From NCBI RefSeq assembly GCF_002804005.1, contig NZ_CP024965.1:434001-498000 (forward strand): 64,000 nt of DNA. Reading direction: 5' to 3'. This DNA comes from Williamsoniiplasma somnilux. GTDB lineage: Bacteria; Bacillota_I; Bacilli_A; Mycoplasmatales; Mycoplasmataceae. Under the pieces are notes generated by a model. It saw nothing but the letters and a program-made list of their open reading frames with translations. It was not told the origin of the DNA and did no database searches. Below, one piece after another: positions 24,396 through 34,836 of the stretch (positions are counted from its first letter, which is position 1; the number at the start of each line of letters is the position of its first letter). Made by a program: the position numbers and the translations under genes.

Positions 24396-24423
24396 AATAA
24401 TGAGTGTTTTACCACTCATTATT
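24396..24423 (-). terminator. Terminator of the membrane-protein gene at 24419-25849
   Basis: Perfect 11-bp stem AATAATGAGTG (24396-24406) / CACTCATTATT (24413-24423), followed on the minus strand by TTTATTC. Confidence 0.8.
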
Positions 24424-25849
24424 TTTTCTTTTTAAATTTTTTAATAAAATCATTTCATCATTTTGAAAATTTTGTTTCTTTACTGTTAATAACTTCATCA
24501 TCATTTTCATACAAAGATTGATCCATTGTATAATTTTGTCCTTGCATCATTGCAGCTGCAGCTTTTTGAAATTCCATATTTGCAAAAGCAATTTTATTTC
24601 TGTCTAATCTTGGGTTTAATGCCAATATTACACCACCAACAACAATTGAAAGAGACAAGAAGGCTATCGAAAGATCAGCCATTAAAGTTAAAGTATTAAT
24701 TCTTGAACCGTAATTGTTCATAACCACATTTCAAAATGCATTTAAATTAGTTTCTTTAGCTTTTTCTGGATCAACAATAATTTTTAAAATTTTGCCAAAA
24801 CTAGTTTTAATGTGATTTGAGTCTACATAAGAAATTAAACTAACAATTTCGAATGTAAAGAAAATAATTGTAAATATTACTGGTCATAAACCAATTCTAT
24901 ACTTGTCTCTCATGCTTCTTGGTTTTCTAAAAGCAGAAACCCCAATATAAATTGAAGGTAGAATAAAGAAAAAATAAGACATAATTGTTTGGAAAGAAAC
25001 TCCTGCTAAAGCTAATGCTGTAGGCGTATCTTTAAAATCTGATTTAAATATATCTTGTCAAGACAAAAATGCACCGTTTGTATAATCACTTACATAATTA
25101 GAACCACTAAAATCAATTTTTGTACTCATTAACATTGCCATTGTCACAATTAAGAATAAAGTAGTGAATATTGTAAAAGCAGCTATAATATATTTTGCAA
25201 TTGGCATTCATTTGCGCTTGATGTTATATGGATAAAATCTAGGATCTTGCATTGGATGCACAGGCATATTTGAAAAATAATTATCTTGAGCATTAAAACC
25301 ATTGCCACCAAAAGGGTTTTGCCCTGCTTGATTAAAGTTATTGTTTGAATAATTATTGTTTTGATTATTACTTTTTGATTTTTTCTCAGCATCTGCGACT
25401 GCTTTTTCGGCTGCTATCTTTTCATCTTCAATAAGTTTATATTTAGCTTTAATTTCATCATTCATTATAGAGATAAACATTACGTCTTGTTCGGTAAACT
25501 TTATTTTAGATTCTACCAATTCGTTTCTTCCGATTTCAAAAGTTTTTGTTACATATGAAATAAAAGATGAGTATTCTGCATAAATGTCTTCAGATTTTTT
25601 TTGCTCAGGCTTTTCAAAACGTTGTTTTTCATTTGTTATTTTAACAATAGCTTTAGCAAAAGTTGTTGCTCATTGAACATTATTATAATTTTGTGCATTT
25701 TCTTTTTCTAAAAACAAAATATTATTTATCTGATTAACTATTTGATTTTTAAAATCTGCATCCTTAGTTAATTCATAACGTAATTTTTCATTTTTAATTA
25801 CGTTATAAAGTAGTTCAACAATACTTTCGTAAATTTTGTTTGGTTCCAT
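24419..25849 (-). CDS. Hypothetical four-span membrane protein with Asn/Gln-rich linker (476 aa)
   Basis: Not recognised. It starts MEPNKIYESIVELLYNVI; GAAGGGG precedes the ATG. A cytoplasmic helical domain (1-150) is followed by a low-complexity linker rich in Asn, Gln, Gly and Phe (about 155-215). Next come a HPMQDPRFYPYN segment and four hydrophobic spans (around 232, 285, 325 and 400). A short basic tail (IKKFKKKK) closes it. Two further long loops hold Lys/Asp-rich text. The gene is directly downstream of holA with a 1-nt gap, so it is co-transcribed with it. A role at the membrane-associated replication or division site is only a guess from the position. Confidence 0.75.
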
Positions 25850-25850
25850 T

Positions 25851-26807
25851 TTACCCCTTCATTACCTTTAAAAATTCATATTCAGGAATAATCTTATTGT
25901 CAGATTTGCCTTGCATCATTTTTTTGTTAAGGTTATATAATAATATAATTTTATCATTTAAATTGTTAATATCGGCTTTAATAAATTTTAATGTCATTTT
26001 TATACGATAAGGTGTGGTATTTAATTTTTTAGCTATTTCTTGATCGCTTACTCCTTGATTTTTGAGAATTATTAAGTTTCTTGTAAAAGATAAATTTGTG
26101 TTAAGTAAAGAAAGAAATCCTGTCAAATCGTTATTTATTATCGAAAAGTCTTTAAATTTATTTAAAAATCCTGTTAAATCGTTATTGATAAAATGATTGC
26201 TTAATTCAAAAATATCTACATCAAAATATTTGTTCAAATTCTCAGCAACTATTTTTAATGTGATTTCATTTTCAGGAATGTTAATAAATTTATTTAATTC
26301 ATTAGAGATTACTTGCATATCATTTGGTAAATTATTAACAATATAAGAAATTGTCTCATTTTCAATTATTTTATTATTTCTTTTAAAAAATTCATTAATG
26401 TAATTAAATGTAGTTTGTTCTGATAATTTTTCAATTTTGTAAATTTCAAAATTATATTTAATGAAATTAGCTATTTTCAATTTTTTAGAAAATTTATCAC
26501 TATTTAATGTAAAAATTACCTCTGTATTTGGAGCAATTTTAGACAACATTGAGATTAGTGTTTCATTGTTAAAATCCTTGTGTAATTGAACTTTGCTTTC
26601 ATTGACAAATCAAGATTCCTTTAAAATAATAATTTTAAAATCTTCAAACATAGAAAAAGTTATTAAAGTGTTTTTGATATCTTGAAGAGAATCCTCAATG
26701 AATGAATGTTCAATTATTTCGCATTTTTTATCTTTGCTAATATTTTTGATTATTTTATCTAAATGTTTTTTTAACAAAAACAAATCTGAAGAATAAATGA
26801 AGTGCAT
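25851..26807 (-). CDS. holA: DNA polymerase III delta subunit
   Basis: The clamp-loader subunit that opens the beta clamp. The 318-aa sequence starts MHFIYSSDLFLLKKHLDKII and follows the HolA layout: domain I with FKIIILKESWFVNE, domain II with AENLNKYFDVDIFELSNHF, and domain III (LLNTNLSFTRNLIILKNQG) with the family's arginine-bearing helix. Two near-identical NNDLTGFL copies stand 16 residues apart (near residues 204 and 220). The rpsT and comEC genes nearby repeat the B. subtilis comEA-comEC-holA-rpsT neighbourhood. Confidence 0.85.
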
Positions 26808-26945: not shown

Positions 26946-27191
26946 ATGGCAAATATCAAATCACAAAAAAAACGTGTGTTAACTAATGAAAAATCAAGAT
27001 TAGCTAATAAATCATTAAAATCAGAAGTTAAAACAGCGATCAAAAAAGCTTTAGTTGCTAAATCAGAAAATGCAACTAACAAAGATGAATTAGTTTTAGC
27101 TGCAATTAAATTAGTTGATAAAGGTGTTTCAAAAGGGATTTTTAAAGCTAACAAAGCTGCTCGTGAAAAATCACGTTTAATGAGTGCTTAA
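26946..27191 (+). CDS. rpsT: 30S ribosomal protein S20
   Basis: An 81-aa basic helical protein starting MANIKSQKKRVLTNEKSRLAN and ending KGIFKANKAAREKSRLMSA, both typical of S20, which binds 16S rRNA at the body of the small subunit. AAAGGAG precedes the ATG. It is the only plus-strand gene between 23.5 and 40.4 kb. Confidence 0.97.
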   Translation: MANIKSQKKRVLTNEKSRLANKSLKSEVKTAIKKALVAKSENATNKDELVLAAIKLVDKGVSKGIFKANKAAREKSRLMSA

Positions 27192-27221: not shown

Positions 27222-27247
27222 AAAGTTAGATTTATTATCTAACTTTT
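27222..27247 (+). terminator. Terminator after rpsT
   Basis: 10-bp stem AAAGTTAGAT / ATCTAACTTT with loop TTATT (27232-27236) and a T run. Confidence 0.88.
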
Positions 27248-27248
27248 T

Positions 27249-29357
27249 TTATTTTAGATCAAAAATCGATTTTGTTTGTAAATCCAAAGTTCAATTGTGA
27301 ATGTTTTGGCTTATTCAATACTGAATATTATTGTTTTTTAATGTTTCTAAAGTTTCAGAATTTGGAAAATGTAAATTGTTATGATCTGTTCCGCTTATAA
27401 AAGCATAAAGCGGATTAATTAACTTAATTCAATCATCGCTAGAAGAAGTTTTTGAACCGTGATGTCCAATAATCATTAAATCAATATTCAAAGATTTAAT
27501 TAATTTTTGAAAGTTTGTATCATTGATAAATTGTTGTTCTCCCACCTTAGTTAAATCACCGCTAATAAAAATGTTGCTCTTACCTGTCATCAATATTATC
27601 AATCTAGAGTTATCATTCTCATCTTTTTGTTTTGTTAATTTAAAAGTTTTTAAAATTAATCCATTAATATTTCATTCGCTTTGCGTATTTTCGCGTTTTA
27701 TTATATTCTTCACATGGAACTCTTCTTTAATTTTATTTATTCCATTATAATGGTCTTCATGATTATGAGATATAAAGACATAATCAATGTCATTTATTCC
27801 TCAATACCTTAACAAGTCAGCTGCATTAGTTTTACCAAAGCCTTGTCCATTACCAACATCGAACAAAATAGTAACATGTTTAACCTTATTTATATAAATT
27901 ATCGATTGTCCATTACCAACATTGACCATAGTTAATATTTCTTCGGGAAGAAATAATCTATTTAAAAATAATATAAAAATTGTAAAGCTACAAAAAATAG
28001 CAATTCTTAAAATTAAATATTTTTTATATTTTAATAAAGCATATAAAAATAAATAATATAAAAATATCAAAAACGGACTAAGGTGCCCAATATTTCAGCA
28101 AATATCAATATAACTAAACAAATGAACATAATTAATTAAAACATTTTTCAAAAATATAAAAAAAGTTTCAACATTAGGTAATCATCAAAATAAAAATGTC
28201 AAAAAATAGCAAACAAAAACAAAAGGACTTATAAGCAATTGGAAAAACTCATCAAAAACATGTCACTTTCAATCATAATAAATTTGTAAAGGTATAAAAA
28301 TCATTGTTGCTTTTAAAAGATTGATCAAAATAAATTTTCAGTTACTATTATTATTTTTACTATCAAAAAATATTAAAGTTACTAACAAAAAGATAAAAGT
28401 TATATTTAAAAAAAATAATGGTTGAACAAAAACCAATAAAACAATAATGATACAATTTTTAGTTATTTTAGATATTTTTATTTTTTTTAAATAGCCAAAA
28501 TTATTAATATAAATGCCAAAAAATACTCTTGTTATAATTAATGGAAACTTTAATAAAAAAAGATAAAAAAATAAGAAAACATCAATTACCATTTTTAAAT
28601 AAATATTTTTTTTAAATCTAAAAATTGTTTTATTTAAAAAAACAGAAATTAAGAATATATTTAAACCACTTAAATTTAATAAATAACTTATACCTAAACT
28701 ATTAAAAGTATTTTTTAAATCACCTGGTAAATAATTGTGAAAAATAAATTTTTGAATTAATTCATTATTAAATTTTTTGACAATATATTTATTAAATAAA
28801 AATATAATGTTATTCGTTTCTATGGCATCGATTTTATAATCAATGACTTGTTGATGAATATTTTGAGTTCACAAATAATTTTGAAAATCAAAATTAAAGA
28901 AATTTTGTTTTGAATCTATTGCTCCAATAGTTCCTGATATGTTAAATTTTTGACCAACAATGTGAGTATTGTTGAAAATATTTAAATAAAAATAAGTATT
29001 GTTATATTTAACAATTAAATAACTATTTGTACTTTTAATTGCAGTTACTTCAACATTATTTAAATAATCTCCTGATTTCATTGAGGGTTCAGTAATTTTT
29101 CAATATATTATAAAAAACACTAAAGGCAAGAGAAATAAAAGAAATAAATATTTGTTTTGTTTGGGTTTATAAAAGATCATTATTAAAACTATAATTAAAG
29201 AAATTAAACTTATTGTTCAAATACCTTTAGAATAAAGAAAAAAAATTGAAATAATTAATAACAATGTCGTAATAAATAATGTGTTTATTTTAAAAGATAA
29301 TAAATTTTTTCATTCCTTTTTCGTAAATAATGCTTTGATTAATTTTTGAACAATAAT
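27249..29357 (-). CDS. comEC: ComEC/Rec2-type DNA-uptake channel protein
   Basis: ComEC moves single-stranded DNA across the membrane during transformation. The roughly 702-aa product has the domains in order: N-terminal spans, an OB-like region (SGDYLNNVEVTAIKS), a competence domain with many spans (LNLSGLNIFLISVFL), and a C-terminal metallo-beta-lactamase domain with VNVGNGQSIIY, FISHNHEDHYNG and IGHHGSKTSSS. The frame stays open well upstream of the first ATG (29081), which would remove the first spans. The only SD-like sequence in the right place, GAGAGGTGATC, is 6 nt before an ATT at 29357, so that codon is my start. The 5' end overlaps the ComEA-like gene by 68 nt. Confidence 0.82.
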
Positions 29358-29787
29358 TGATCACCTCTCTTTTTCTTATTTCTTTGTTTAAACCAGTTTT
29401 AAAAATAGCAATTAAATCAGAACATATTTGCTCAGAAACTCTTAGTGTTTGTTTTAAAAAATTAATTGTTAATAATTTGTAATTAATTTTTTGTACATAT
29501 TTAGTTTTAATATCTAAAATTACATAATTTTTTTCAAAAATAATAGGTTCAAAAAAATCGATATTAGAGTTATTACTAACAAATTGTTCTTTTAATGGTA
29601 CGTTTGAATCTTTGAATAAAATTTTTGGAAAATTTATTTTAATTTCAGTTGGCAAATTATATCTAATTGCACAATAATAATTAGTTATTTCTTTATTCGA
29701 TAAACCAAGTTCTTGGTTATAAAAATAAATTATTCCTCCACCTAAAAAACTAAAAATAACAATAAAGATAAAAAGTATTTTTTTCAT
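29290..29787 (-). CDS. ComEA-like protein (degenerate helix-hairpin-helix)
   Basis: 165 aa with an N-terminal membrane anchor (KILFIFIVIFSFLGGGIIYFY, residues 3-23). The C-terminal part KLLTINFLKQTLRVSEQICSD followed by IAIFKTGLNKEIRKREVI lines up in spacing and hydrophobicity with the paired helices of ComEA's helix-hairpin-helix region (N.AT..EL..L.GI....A..I...R..G). The glycines of the hairpins are missing, so DNA binding is uncertain. GGGGAAT precedes the ATG. The position directly upstream of and overlapping comEC is exactly where comEA lies in Firmicutes, which is the main argument. Confidence 0.5.
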   Translation of the reverse strand: MKKILFIFIVIFSFLGGGIIYFYNQELGLSNKEITNYYCAIRYNLPTEIKINFPKILFKDSNVPLKEQFVSNNSNIDFFEPIIFEKNYVILDIKTKYVQKINYKLLTINFLKQTLRVSEQICSDLIAIFKTGLNKEIRKREVINYCSKINQSIIYEKGMKKFIIF

Positions 29788-29815: not shown

Positions 29816-29840
29816 AAAAGAGATTGTTTAAATCTCTTTT
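29816..29840 (-). terminator. Terminator after valS
   Basis: 10-bp stem AAAAGAGATT (29816-29825) / AATCTCTTTT (29831-29840), followed on the minus strand by seven T (with the stem). The valS stop is in the stem. Confidence 0.85.
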
Positions 29841-32475
29841 ATAAATTTTGAAGTTTTTGTTCTATTGCTAACAAATGTTCTTTGTAAGACTTATATTTAT
29901 CTTTTTCTAATGCAATTTTTTCAGAAGAAGCTTTTTCAACAAAATTAGAATTGTTTAACATTTTTTCTGAACGTTTAATTTCTTGTTCCAACTCAATTTT
30001 TTTCGCTTGAAGCTCTTTAAAAAGTTCTTCTTTATTAATAAATTGTGAATTTAAAATTTCTAAAAAATATCCATTAATAGATATTGATGAAACATCCTTT
30101 GTATTTAAATTTTCAAAGCTAATTTCTGAATTTACAAAACTTTTTAAAAATTCATTTATTATTTCGAAATTTTTCTTAAAAATTTCGAAATTTTTGTCAT
30201 TTAAATTAGTTACCGTAAAATTTAAAGATGATACATTTTTGATATTATTTGAATTTCTAAATTCTCTAATAGCACTAATTAAATCAACTACATAATTGAT
30301 ATATTCAGTTTCAAAATTGAATTTCTCTTGGCATCATTGCTCTAACATTATTGAATTTTTTAAATTCATTTTACAATAAATTTCTTCTGTTATAAAAGGC
30401 GTAAAGGGATGTAAAATAATTAAAATTTGTTTCAAAACATAAAAAAGTGTTTGTTTAGTTGAATTTACAATTGATAAATTAGTTGAAGCTAAATTTACTT
30501 TTGCAAATTCAATATATCATGAGCAATATTTAGTTCAAACAAAATCATAAATTAATTTTCCGGCAATTGCGAATTCATATTTATTAATCAACTCTGAAAC
30601 TTGAATATTTAATTTATTAAATTCATTAAGAATTCATCTATCAACATCAGACTCTTTGTTTAACAAGGTTTCGTTGGAAATAATTTGTGGTTCAAAATTA
30701 TCTCCAATATTCATCAATAAATATCTAGAAGCATTTCACAATTTATTCATAAAATTTCATGAACTTCTAATTTTCTCTTCGCTATATTTAATATCTTGTC
30801 CTGGGGTTGAATTTGTTAACAAAAAGAAACGCAACGAATCAACACCATATTGATTAATTAAGTCCATCGGATCAATTCCATTACCTAAAGATTTAGACAT
30901 TTTTTGTCCTTGTTCATCTCTAACAAGACCATGTATTAAAACATCTTTAAAAGGTTTTTTACCTGTAAAAACCAAACCTTGAAAAATCATTCTTGCTACT
31001 CAAAAGAAAATAATATCATAACCTGTTACTAATACATTTGTCGGATAATAACGTTCAAAATATTCACTAAATTTTGTAGCTTCTCATTTTAGTGTTGCAA
31101 ATGGCCATAAAGCAGAAGAAAATCATGTATCTAAAACATCAGTATCTTGTTCTCAATTTTCTAAGTCTACAGGAGGAGTCAAACTAACAATCATTTGTTT
31201 AGTTTTTTTGTTGTAGTAAGCAGGAATTTGATGACCTCATCATAATTGACGTGAAATTGTTCAATCATAGGCATCGGTCATTCATTTTTCTAAAACTTTA
31301 TTAAATCGTTCTGGAAAAAAATTAATTTGTTGATTACTATTTTGTAAATTTAAAACCTCTTGAGCCAAAGTTTTCATTTTAACAAATCATTGATTAGACA
31401 AATATGGTTCAACAATAGTGTCAGTACGTTCTGAAAAACCAACTTGATGTTTAATTGCTTCTTCTTTAATGAAAGTATTCATTTTTTTAGTATTAATAAT
31501 AATTTTTTTTCTTGCTGCAAAACGATCTAAACCATTATAGTTGGCTCCACCCAATTCGTTAATTGTTCCATCTTCATTCATACAAATGGGTTGTGCTAAA
31601 TTATGACGTTTTCCTATTTCAAAATCATTAGGATCATGAGCTGGTGTACATTTCATAACTCCTGTTCCGAAATCAATTTCTACATAATCATCAGTGATAA
31701 CAGGAATTAAATTATTATTAACTGGATTGATAACTTTTTTACCAACAAATTTTAAATATCTTTGATCATTTGGATTAACAACCAAACATTGATCCGCAAA
31801 CATTGTTTCTGGTCTTGTAGTGGCTACTTCTAAAAAATCATTTGTTCCTTCAATAACATATTTGAAATAAAACATTTTCCCTTCAACTTCTTTGTAAATT
31901 ACTTCAATATTTGATAAAGCTGTTTTTTGTTTAGGATCTCAATTAATAATTTTTTTATCTTTATAAATTAAACCCTTTTCAAACATCGAAACAAATACTG
32001 AATTAACTAGTTTATTAATTTCAGGATTAAATGTAAAGTTTTCAAGAGAATAATCTAGTGCCAAACCCATTTTGGCTCATTGTTGACGAATTGTTTGCGC
32101 ATATTCATTTTTTCATTTTCACACTTCTTTTAAAAATTTATCTCTACCTAAATCATGGCGAGTTAAATCTTGTTCTTTTAGTTTAGATTCAACTTTTGTT
32201 TGTGTTGCGATTCCGGCATGATCCATTCCTGGAAGATATAAAGTATCAAAGCCATTCAATTTTTTGAAACGAATAATAGCATCTTGTAAACTTCCATCCC
32301 AAGCATGACCCAAGTGTAATTTACCAGTAACATTTGGAGGGGGCAAAATAATAGAAAAAGGTGGTTTTAAAGAATTGATATCAGCCTTAAAATAACCATT
32401 TTTAATTCAGTTTTCATATTTATTTTTTTCAACTAAATTTGAATCATATTTAGGACTTAATTCTTTATTTTTCAT
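29839..32475 (-). CDS. valS: Valyl-tRNA synthetase
   Basis: A class I synthetase of 878 aa that charges tRNA-Val. The HIGH motif appears as [15 protein letters not shown] (near residue 45), the KMSKS motif as [14 protein letters not shown]. The editing domain has [13 protein letters not shown] and [20 protein letters not shown]-terminal coiled-coil arm (the final ~70 residues, Lys/Glu-rich) is typical of ValRS. Many TGA Trp split the frame under code 1. The upstream gap (32476-32544) holds only an AT-rich promoter region. Confidence 0.97.
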
Positions 32476-32586: not shown

Positions 32587-34836
32587 TTAACGAATAACGA
32601 CTTCTTTATGGTCAATAATATCTTGCTCATATTTTTTGATTGGTTGTGGTTCGGTTAATGAAAACAAAACATTAAATGGTGTTGGTTTAAGAACATTACT
32701 TTGACGTGCTTCCATATCTTTGTGTCATTTTTTATGTTTTTTTGCTAAATTAGCTTTTGATTTATTTTGATGTTTATTTAACATCTCCATAATTTTTGTC
32801 TTGTCTAATTTATATTTTTTCAAAAAAATTTGATGTTTGTTAAATTTTCTTGTTAAAGCAATTTCGCTATTCTCAAAAATATCATTACTGATTTGATCGT
32901 CAAATTGATATTTAATATTTATTTTTTCACGTTTTAAACGTGATTTTTCAATAATAGAATTAATTAATTTATTTTTTTTATTTTCAAGTTCTTTAATCAA
33001 ATCTTTTTTATTGCTTTTTTCACTTACTTCGAGTGCATGAATTTTAATTCCAATTGTTTTATTAACATGACTAATATCAGCTTCATTTGCAATCGTTACT
33101 TCGTTTAAAGCTGATTCTAGCAAGGTTGGAGGTGTGAACTCATCTTTAACATTATTTAATTGGTAATTTTTGATAGCTTTTTTAGAAGTTAAATACAATA
33201 ACACCGTTGCTGCTATTGCTGCAGGGATTTCTGCCATTCCGTAGAATAAAAAAATAATTCAATCTGCATTTCCATTATTATTTCAACTTCCGCGAGCAAT
33301 TGCTCAACCAATAATTGTCATTGTAATAACCGAAATTAATGCTCTTAAAACCGATAATAATGTCGCATAAGTTGATTGTCCTGTTCCCTGAAAAAGCGAC
33401 ATCGCTGAATAAGTTCATCCAGCCATAAAGAAACAACTGAAATACAAGAAAAATCATCAATGTTGTTCTTTTGGACCGTCGAACAACTGTAACATCATCC
33501 CTCCAAATGCCATAACAATAAATACCACTAAAAATCCTCAAATTGTATTAATTAGCATTTGGATTCTTAAAGTTTGTAAAATTCTAAATCGATTTCCTGA
33601 ACCTTTGTTGTAAGCGTAGTTTGCATTTCCACCTTGCATCATTCCAACAATCGGTGCTCATAAAATCCCCATTCAAGGACTGCCTGCTGACAATACTCGA
33701 ATTGCTGTTGAAACATAGGCTGGATGATCATTAACTACAATAATTATTCATCCTGCTCATGCTTGTGAAGGTGGACCAGGATTTGGGTGCATTACAGTAA
33801 TTAACAAAGTCAAAATGAAGTTAGCTGCTGCAAAAATGAAATTTGATAAAAATGGTGAAAATCCTAAAGACCAAATTGAAAGTGAGTCTTTTCAAGTTAA
33901 TTTAATTTTTTTCAAATTTGGTCTTAATAATGTATTTTTTGAAAAAGTAATAATTAATAAAGCAACAATAATTAAAAATCCTCAAGCAATCATTGAACCA
34001 TAAACTGCCCCAGCCATTTTTTGATCTGCAGGAGATGCTTTCATAATTAATTCTCCAGTAATCATGTTGATAGCAACTGAAGCAACGTTAATTGCAATAA
34101 CTCATCAAACCTTACCTTCGGTTCTTAGTAAAGTTGATAAAAAGGTTGCAAAAACTAATAATGGAAATCCCATAATAAACTTACTTGTGTATTGACTGGC
34201 AAGTAAATAAGCTACTGAAGTTTCTCGGTCTCCATAAGCAACATTAGCTTGTGCACAAATTATTAGAGGTGAAACAAAATATAAAATAATAACTCCAATA
34301 ACTGCCATCAATAAGGTTTGTAATAAACCAGTTACAAGAACACTATCCATTTCTTGTTTATTTCTTCTTCCCATTGCTTGTCCTCATTTAACAGCCGTTC
34401 CAACAGCAGTTAATAACGATAATGCCTGAAGAATAAAAATAATCGTATTAGAATATTGTGTTGAAACATTAATTAATTGTTTAGCAAAAAGCTCTAAATA
34501 AACATTATCGGTGTTTGCATTAATCTCTGTAATCCCATCTGCTAATCAACCTTTTATTTCTCCAGATTTAACCATAGAAATTACTTGGTCCATCGCAAAA
34601 TGTAAAGTTAATTGTTTATCAATTATTCCATACAATGCATTAACCAAAGTAATTATAATCATTGGTCCTGCCATAAACATTAATGCTTTAAATGGTGAAG
34701 CATATCTTAAAATTCATTCACGTCTAGTAAATAAAGTTGCTTGTTGTGAAAATTTATCTTCTTTAATAATTTGATTAACATTAACTTCAAAATTTTTAGC
34801 TTCATCATTATTGATTATTTTATTATTTTCTTCCAT
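32587..34836 (-). CDS. MATE-family efflux transporter with long cytoplasmic tail (749 aa)
   Basis: A polytopic transporter of the MATE (NorM/DinF) type, which exports cationic compounds using ion gradients. After a 45-residue polar N-terminus come about twelve spans; typical features are MAGPMIIITLVNALYGIID at the start, SLLTAVGTAVKWGQAMGRRN, and in the second half APIVGMMQGGNANYAYNKGSG. AAGAGAGGAG precedes the ATG. The last 170 residues after the final span (from KKAIKNYQLNN) are Lys/Glu-rich, helical and absent from ordinary MATE proteins of about 450-550 aa. Confidence 0.85.

Follow-up and report, generated by a model that had tools for sequence, protein, structure and literature searches.

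A full-length ComEC-family gene beside a probable, eroded ComEA descendant in Williamsoniiplasma somnilux

The window analysed here, a stretch of 64,000 nucleotides of Williamsoniiplasma somnilux, contains comEC and, in front of it, the gene of a ComEA-like protein of 165 aa. On balance, we lean towards reading the pair as a working ComEC, importer and nuclease in one, next to which ComEA no longer serves as the main DNA receptor. ComEC is intact in its domains and motifs. The 165-aa protein is likely a descendant of ComEA whose C-terminal domain is best read as unable to bind DNA in the way of ComEA, and in several relatives the gene is reduced or unrecognisable beside a full-length comEC. 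All coordinates are positions in the window, and reading frames were determined under code 4.

Four genes follow one another on the minus strand: valS (29839..32475), the 165-aa gene (29290..29787), comEC (27249..29264, 671 aa counted from a TTG) and holA (25851..26807). The opposite (plus) strand carries, between comEC and holA, an ORF recognised by eye which we take to be rpsT (26946..27191); it was named by sequence and place, and was located in the relatives by tblastn. The two ORFs of the pair were found where an earlier note on this DNA had placed them. The chance of such an open frame in random sequence of this composition (26% G+C) is about 1.5e-6 at 165 codons and about 2e-24 at 671 codons. 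holA matches TIGR01128 above the cut-off (E 1.9e-47), and valS was assigned by tRNA-synt_1 and Anticodon_1, with Val_tRNA-synt_C slightly under its cut-off. The ORFs and the holA match also bear out that holA and rpsT adjoin comEC, a linkage presumably shared with B. subtilis. All three genes, comEC, holA and rpsT, were located in 47 family genomes; rpsT lies between comEC and holA in 41 of these and beyond holA in six, all of genus g8.

comEC probably does not begin at the TTG at 29264. The family ComEC profile matches past it to about 29327, overlapping the gene in front, and this extension contains no in-frame ATG, GTG or TTG; the true start probably lies upstream of the TTG, near 29327. 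Between comEC and rpsT, whose ends converge, a hairpin with T-runs (27222..27246; folding of both strands, z -3.4 and -2.5) could act as a two-way terminator for both genes. A second hairpin, located where valS gives way to the ComEA-like gene (29816..29840, minus strand; folding, z -2.2), is followed by a T-run and is a possible terminator of valS. Neither hairpin appeared in a simple consensus terminator scan. The promoter scan of the window returned 22 promoter-like sites, fewer than the 29.7 that shuffling predicts, and therefore no promoter is claimed. The Rfam search of the window at gathering score yielded one tRNA and nothing else. The published link between the 2'-dG riboswitch and ComEC was set aside; in the accessible part of that literature it concerns Bacteroidetes. 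Two further proteins are encoded nearby on the minus strand: one of 476 aa behind holA (24419-25849), which has no Pfam match, is rich in asparagine over one stretch and contains several hydrophobic segments, and one of 749 aa upstream of valS (32587-34836), which resembles a multi-span transporter and has a long charged C-terminal tail.

The window ComEC possesses both the competence and the metallo-beta-lactamase (MBL) domain, as the earlier note had proposed. The Competence domain (PF03772) covers residues 178-414 (28023..28733, minus strand; E 6.4e-9, 36 bits against a cut-off of 23, and 39.5 bits in the genome search). Lactamase_B (PF00753; E 5.1e-11, 43.3 bits against a cut-off of 22.7) marks an MBL-like nuclease domain of about residues 442-671 (27249..27941, minus strand). 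The metal-binding motif SHNHEDH (residues 499-505, 27750..27770, minus strand) and the motif HHGSK (residues 601-605, 27450..27464, minus strand) are both intact. The predicted structure has a mean pLDDT of 79.5, and its best Foldseek match in PDB is 9ic4, the MBL domain of Moorella ComEC (E 1e-12). The DUF4131 or OB domain is weak (24 bits, under the cut-off of 31.6). The NCBI ComEC equivalog model TIGR00361 matches with E 4e-32 and 111.2 bits, under its cut-off of 190.05, so that the protein is filed as a ComEC-family protein and not as an equivalog. NF045979, the model of the MAG0480 family of ComEC-like proteins, reaches 59.7 bits, under its cut-off of 150.

A comEC match was found in 58 of the 60 family genomes, and the frame is at least 640 aa long in 45. 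SHxHxDH is present in 41 of these 45 full-length proteins, the relaxed form [ST]HxxxDH in 44 and HHGS[KR] in 40, the counts leaving out 12 genomes with shorter frames, one without a frame (G019) and two without a match (G005 and G025). One full-length protein is without the motifs (G051). In 15 of the 60 genomes, nine of them in genus g8, comEC is broken or missing, and it is intact in all three of the other compared genomes of the window's own genus (G057, G058 and G059), the close relatives in which a disruption had been proposed as a test. In six pairs of relatives the dN/dS of comEC is 0.15-0.21, with dS above 1.5 in two of the pairs, and comEC is thus under purifying selection in relatives; the nearest comEC among the family genomes compared is 36% identical to that of the window. 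Since ComEC is intact, conserved and under purifying selection in relatives, it is probably no relic. To this extent the earlier suggestion of an uptake role holds, while an active pair of ComEA and ComEC remained unsupported.

Several single observations were made on ComEC in the relatives. In genus g10, SHTDQDH replaces SHxHxDH in all three genomes (L031, L007, L046), and HHGSK is kept. Matches to the MBL domain of ComEC also occur elsewhere in relatives (G010:C1:39217-39759, G013:C1:36379-36966 and others) in frames of about 200-265 aa, which are probably distinct MBL proteins. G012 (L058, L272; genus g7) has broken copies of comEC, the ComEA-like gene and dprA, all three of which are open in its six sisters.

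The 165-aa protein gave empty or chance-level results in sequence searches of Pfam, NCBIfam and PDB. NF045978, the model of the MAG0490 family of ComEA-like proteins, does not match it at E <= 10, and has no match in the W. somnilux genome at E <= 0.001. The predicted structure (mean pLDDT 91.3) starts with a long N-terminal helix of residues 2-26 (29710..29784, minus strand), whose role as a membrane anchor is suggested by its hydrophobicity. It is followed by a beta/alpha middle domain of residues 36-100 (29488..29682, minus strand), which may correspond to the oligomerization domain of ComEA, judging from the model and the register of the profile matches. The C-terminal domain of residues 108-162 (29302..29466, minus strand) is predicted with pLDDT above 90 to consist of four helices (108-115, 119-129, 135-148 and 152-162) in two closely spaced pairs, and occupies the place of the two helix-hairpin-helix (HhH) motifs. 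In ComEA of G. stearothermophilus the two HhH motifs are reported to be joined by a loop, with the usual linker helix missing (PMC9747964). The structural comparison with ComEA that had been suggested earlier thus gave the four helices in two pairs; the fold search brought no ComEA or HhH structure. None of its 44 Foldseek matches is a ComEA (best E 1.2), which does not show absence, and the best row of VIA-align (Z 6.4) leads to a protein not known as HhH, with no ComEA or HhH chain among the rows listed.

Descent from ComEA was followed at the level of the family. Direct matches to the 165-aa protein were obtained in nine of the 60 family genomes, W. somnilux included, and most family genomes encode, in the slot in front of comEC, a protein of like size with an anchor. 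With the anchor removed, the eight slot proteins of the window type match the 22 others with E 1.5e-7, and the 30 together match 37 ComEAs of the MAG0490 type with E 2.6e-4; none of 300 column shuffles scored as high at either step. The latter alignment runs from the last part of the middle domain through the first HhH. The MAG0490 type in turn matches true ComEA with E 2.7e-22 (0 of 60 shuffles as high). Slot proteins shorter than 120 aa by ATG start, as well as L007, L048 and L067, were left out of this chain and of the joint alignment, and slot frames with non-ATG starts were examined separately. Smaller alignments that included the anchor gave profile links of E 3.4e-7 and 7.7e-5, and part of this early strength came from the membrane anchor. 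Once the anchor was removed from them, the links between window type and g9 type and between g9 type and MAG0490 type fell near shuffle level (one of 60 shuffles as high in each case), and those to true ComEA to shuffle level (1, 55 and 20 of 60 shuffles as high); all 23 slot proteins together against the MAG0490 type exceeded all 60 shuffles. Direct profile comparison with true ComEA gave a short match in the anchor and nothing more, and the other small comparisons were nil. More weight was given to the larger alignments, of 30 and 37 sequences and built with a slower aligner, in which the links were clearer. The 165-aa protein and its slot-mates are therefore likely, at family level, to descend from ComEA. 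Of the membrane anchor and degenerate HhH region that had been ascribed to the front gene, the anchor helix is predicted; the degenerate HhH is not demonstrable from the protein alone and is suggested by the family comparison.

The residues that carry DNA binding in ComEA have been lost to different degrees. In the joint alignment, the position equivalent to K164 of B. subtilis ComEA is K in 11 of 15 true ComEAs, in none of the 37 proteins of the MAG0490 type and in none of the 30 slot proteins, and it is I in the window. The first glycine of the first hairpin is found in 14 of the 15 true ComEAs, 17 of the 37 MAG0490-type proteins and 16 of the 30 slot proteins (R in the window), and the second in 15, one and none, respectively. 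The two glycines of the second hairpin, where the alignment is uncertain, are kept in 15 and 13 of the true ComEAs, 31 and 33 of the MAG0490 type and three and two of the slot proteins. The window protein has no GxG in its last 75 residues, with RVS at one of the two hairpin positions and no GxG at either; a single chance GNG was seen among the 31 slot ORFs counted. Lysines 157 and 161 are invariant in the eight proteins of the window type. The exchange K164A in B. subtilis ComEA lowered transformation more than 100-fold, and the matching mutant of G. stearothermophilus ComEA did not bind DNA, as reported in the accessible part of PMC9747964. DNA binding has thus probably changed throughout these mollicutes, most of all in the family of the window. 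On the residues involved, the best reading of the C-terminal domain of the 165-aa protein is that it would be unable to bind DNA in ComEA's way. The earlier view that both proteins look complete save for the hairpin glycines leaves out that the 165-aa protein has lost the K164 equivalent as well, and that in the three other genomes of the genus the slot gene is anchor-only or unrecognisable.

The slot gene itself shows a graded loss. The slot protein is full-size in 36 of the 45 genomes with full-length comEC; it consists of anchor with middle domain in two and of the anchor only in two, no slot protein was recognised in four, and in one the slot is truncated by the contig end (G006). The two forms with anchor and middle domain (G001 and G002) have the same end point and are 47% identical; their dS of 0.90 and dN of 0.42 indicate moderate constraint only. 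An anchor-only peptide is present in G058 and G059, and nothing was recognised by eye in G053, G055, G056 and G057; a short hydrophobic frame in G053 that ends at the comEC start may be a remnant of the anchor. Thus comEC is accompanied by an anchor-only or unrecognisable slot in all three of G057-G059, the sole other genomes of the window's genus in the comparison. On the ComEC tree, the root and some long branches of which are unsure, the eight genomes without a full slot protein require at least three changes, two of them forced by supported branches. A dN/dS of 0.10-0.29 was measured for the full slot gene in six pairs of relatives, and hence the gene is kept by selection where it is present and measurable, and is not decaying everywhere. 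The anchor-only peptides of two genomes measure 41-42 aa (L003 1338-1463 and L004 1332-1454, in the reading direction of comEC) and adjoin or overlap the comEC start; they are possibly retained for translational coupling.

The search for further competence genes, suggested in the earlier note, turned up dprA in divergent form and no comF. dprA (PF02481) was found in the W. somnilux genome above the cut-off (E 4.5e-23) as a divergent gene (G000:C1:532140-532763, L276) that is open over 255 aa; its product is without the residues GSR and GGAxGID, which we take to be typical of DprA. The DprA proteins of two relatives that were aligned with it differ at the typical sites, too. comF (TIGR00201) has no match at E <= 0.001 in the W. 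somnilux genome and none above the cut-off in the 60 family genomes, 46 of which have weak partial matches; this cut-off is strict, being passed by two of 14 controls. The pilus/secretion ATPase (PF00437) has no match in the W. somnilux genome and one above the cut-off among the 60 family genomes, within a stretch with stops. The HHH_3 domain was not found in the W. somnilux genome. dprA is broken or absent in eight of the 15 genomes with broken or absent comEC and in four of the 45 with full-length comEC (Fisher p 0.0007, and p 0.04 outside genus g8, in statistics that ignore kinship). The classes of both genes were set by hand, the dprA of G004, G005, G016, G051 and G052 being counted as intact though divergent or short, and that of G024 as broken. 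That dprA breakage accompanies comEC breakage lends mild support to a link with recombination.

In the preferred reading, DNA would meet the MBL domain of ComEC on the outer side of the membrane; one strand would be cut there and the other taken in through the channel. In a cell with neither wall nor pilus, outside DNA could reach ComEC directly, and a high-affinity ComEA receptor would then no longer be needed. The ComEA descendant would keep its anchor and the domain placed like the oligomerization domain, would be at most an accessory of ComEC, and would have been lost in sister lineages where comEC stays. We infer the nuclease and import activity, the direct access of DNA and the accessory role from these comparisons; the imported DNA might be used for nucleotides, for occasional transformation, or for both. 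In B. subtilis the exchanges D573A and D575A in the MBL domain of ComEC cut transformation 10-100 fold (PMC8579336). The L-forms of one Gram-positive bacterium are reported, in the accessible part of PMC9500057, to have taken up DNA without comEA and comEC, so that uptake by wall-less cells need not use ComEC.

How much is left of a receptor function in the front gene can be judged from the same data. An active uptake pair as in Bacillus, in which ComEA with changed DNA contacts still receives DNA, would agree with the purifying selection that the front gene shows in the six relative pairs, and with a slot protein that is still full-size in 36 of the 45 genomes with full-length comEC; the confidently predicted four-helix domain and the invariant lysines 157 and 161 would fit as well. 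When a transposon disrupted MAG0490, which encodes the ComEA-like protein of M. agalactiae, the mutant showed poor growth on fibroblasts (PMC3179502); this speaks for such a pair and also fits nutrition, but it may be due to polar effects. Both GxG pairs and the K164 equivalent are gone, however, no pilus ATPase and no comF were found in the W. somnilux genome, and in three genomes of the genus comEC persists beside an incomplete or unrecognised slot protein; we regard an active pair as rather unlikely. An accessory role could also be the whole function, ComEA having turned into a DNA-independent, membrane-anchored partner of ComEC kept for its oligomerization-type domain, a tentative idea to which we give about the same small weight. 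An origin of the 165-aa protein from some other small membrane protein, not related to ComEA but placed like it, would agree with the missing direct match to ComEA in sequence and fold and with the weak smaller profile comparisons without the anchor. The family-level chain in the expected register, with no shuffle of 300 as high at both steps, and the shared slot, similar size, anchor and domain order make this improbable.

The use of the imported DNA is the other point on which the explanations differ. A role in nutrition only, in which DNA strands or nucleotides imported by ComEC supply bases and no transformation takes place, has been proposed for other mollicutes (PMC11004492, PMC11535214). 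It would suit a genome in which no pilus ATPase and no comF were found. The kept frame of dprA and the parallel breakage of dprA and comEC (8/15 versus 4/45) argue against it, an argument that loses force if the residues which the W. somnilux DprA is without are, as we assume, those typical of DprA. Nutrition alone is accordingly a serious candidate, though we would not bet on it. That comEC and the slot gene are inherited and unused is the explanation to which we give the least credit: the broken or absent comEC in 15 of the 60 genomes and the stepwise loss of the front gene would fit, but full-length comEC with its motifs persists across deep branches, its dN/dS is 0.15-0.21 in six pairs, and transcripts of the comEC family are reported to be enriched in cultured S. 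poulsonii (PMC5874924). The preferred reading remains a working ComEC, serving nutrition, transformation or both, that has outlived ComEA as its main receptor.

Why the reduced genomes of mollicutes keep ComEC is a question for which nutrition and transformation have both been suggested (PMC11535214, PMC5874924). Every stage of the slot series (the full protein, anchor with middle domain, anchor alone, no recognisable frame) accompanies a full-length ComEC, and the series amounts to a set of natural deletion mutants. If the DNA-independent accessory is real, the form with anchor and middle domain in G001 and G002 would be its purest version and would reveal a second function of ComEA. Across the mollicutes the functions appear to be split: a ComEC without nuclease accompanies a recognisable, mostly glycine-bearing ComEA, and a nuclease-bearing ComEC accompanies a ComEA without the glycines, in few independent lineages.

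Compared with ComEC/Rec2 of the B. subtilis type (TIGR00361), the window ComEC shares the Competence and MBL domains, the metal-binding motif and the predicted MBL fold; it is 21-30% identical in the best segments to 80 bacterial ComECs kept from one profile scan, and lies under the TIGR00361 and DUF4131 cut-offs. Gram-positive ComEA (B. subtilis, G. stearothermophilus), as described in the accessible part of PMC9747964, appears to share with the modelled 165-aa protein an N-terminal anchor, a beta-containing middle domain and four C-terminal helices, whereas the 165-aa protein is without the hairpin GxG, the K164 equivalent and a match in the fold search. A pair of ComEA-like and ComEC-like proteins in mollicutes is already known, as NCBI curates it (NF045978, NF045979) and mollicute ComEC is discussed in print. 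The MAG0480/MAG0490 pair of other mollicutes has the same order, ComEA-like and then ComEC. Its ComEC frames in other families are 424-490 aa long at 35 of 37 loci, one of the 35 being cut by the contig end (L240); the remaining two are a 244-aa piece and a locus without a match. The MBL domain was found at none of the 37 loci (E <= 0.01, within stretches of 4-7.5 kb, so that an MBL elsewhere in the genome is possible), and GxG is present in the last 40 residues of 31 of the 37 MAG0490-type ComEAs; the window's family shows the opposite on both counts. At three loci of families f5 and f6, judged by eye, the ComEC bears an MBL and the slot frame shows no GxG towards its end; the opposite pattern may reflect few lineages. 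According to a survey, ComECs from part of the Tenericutes clade are mostly of the Competence-only form (PMC6299819), which makes the MBL-bearing ComEC a notable feature of the lineage. The channel itself is of a known kind; the interesting part is the eroded ComEA beside an intact ComEC.
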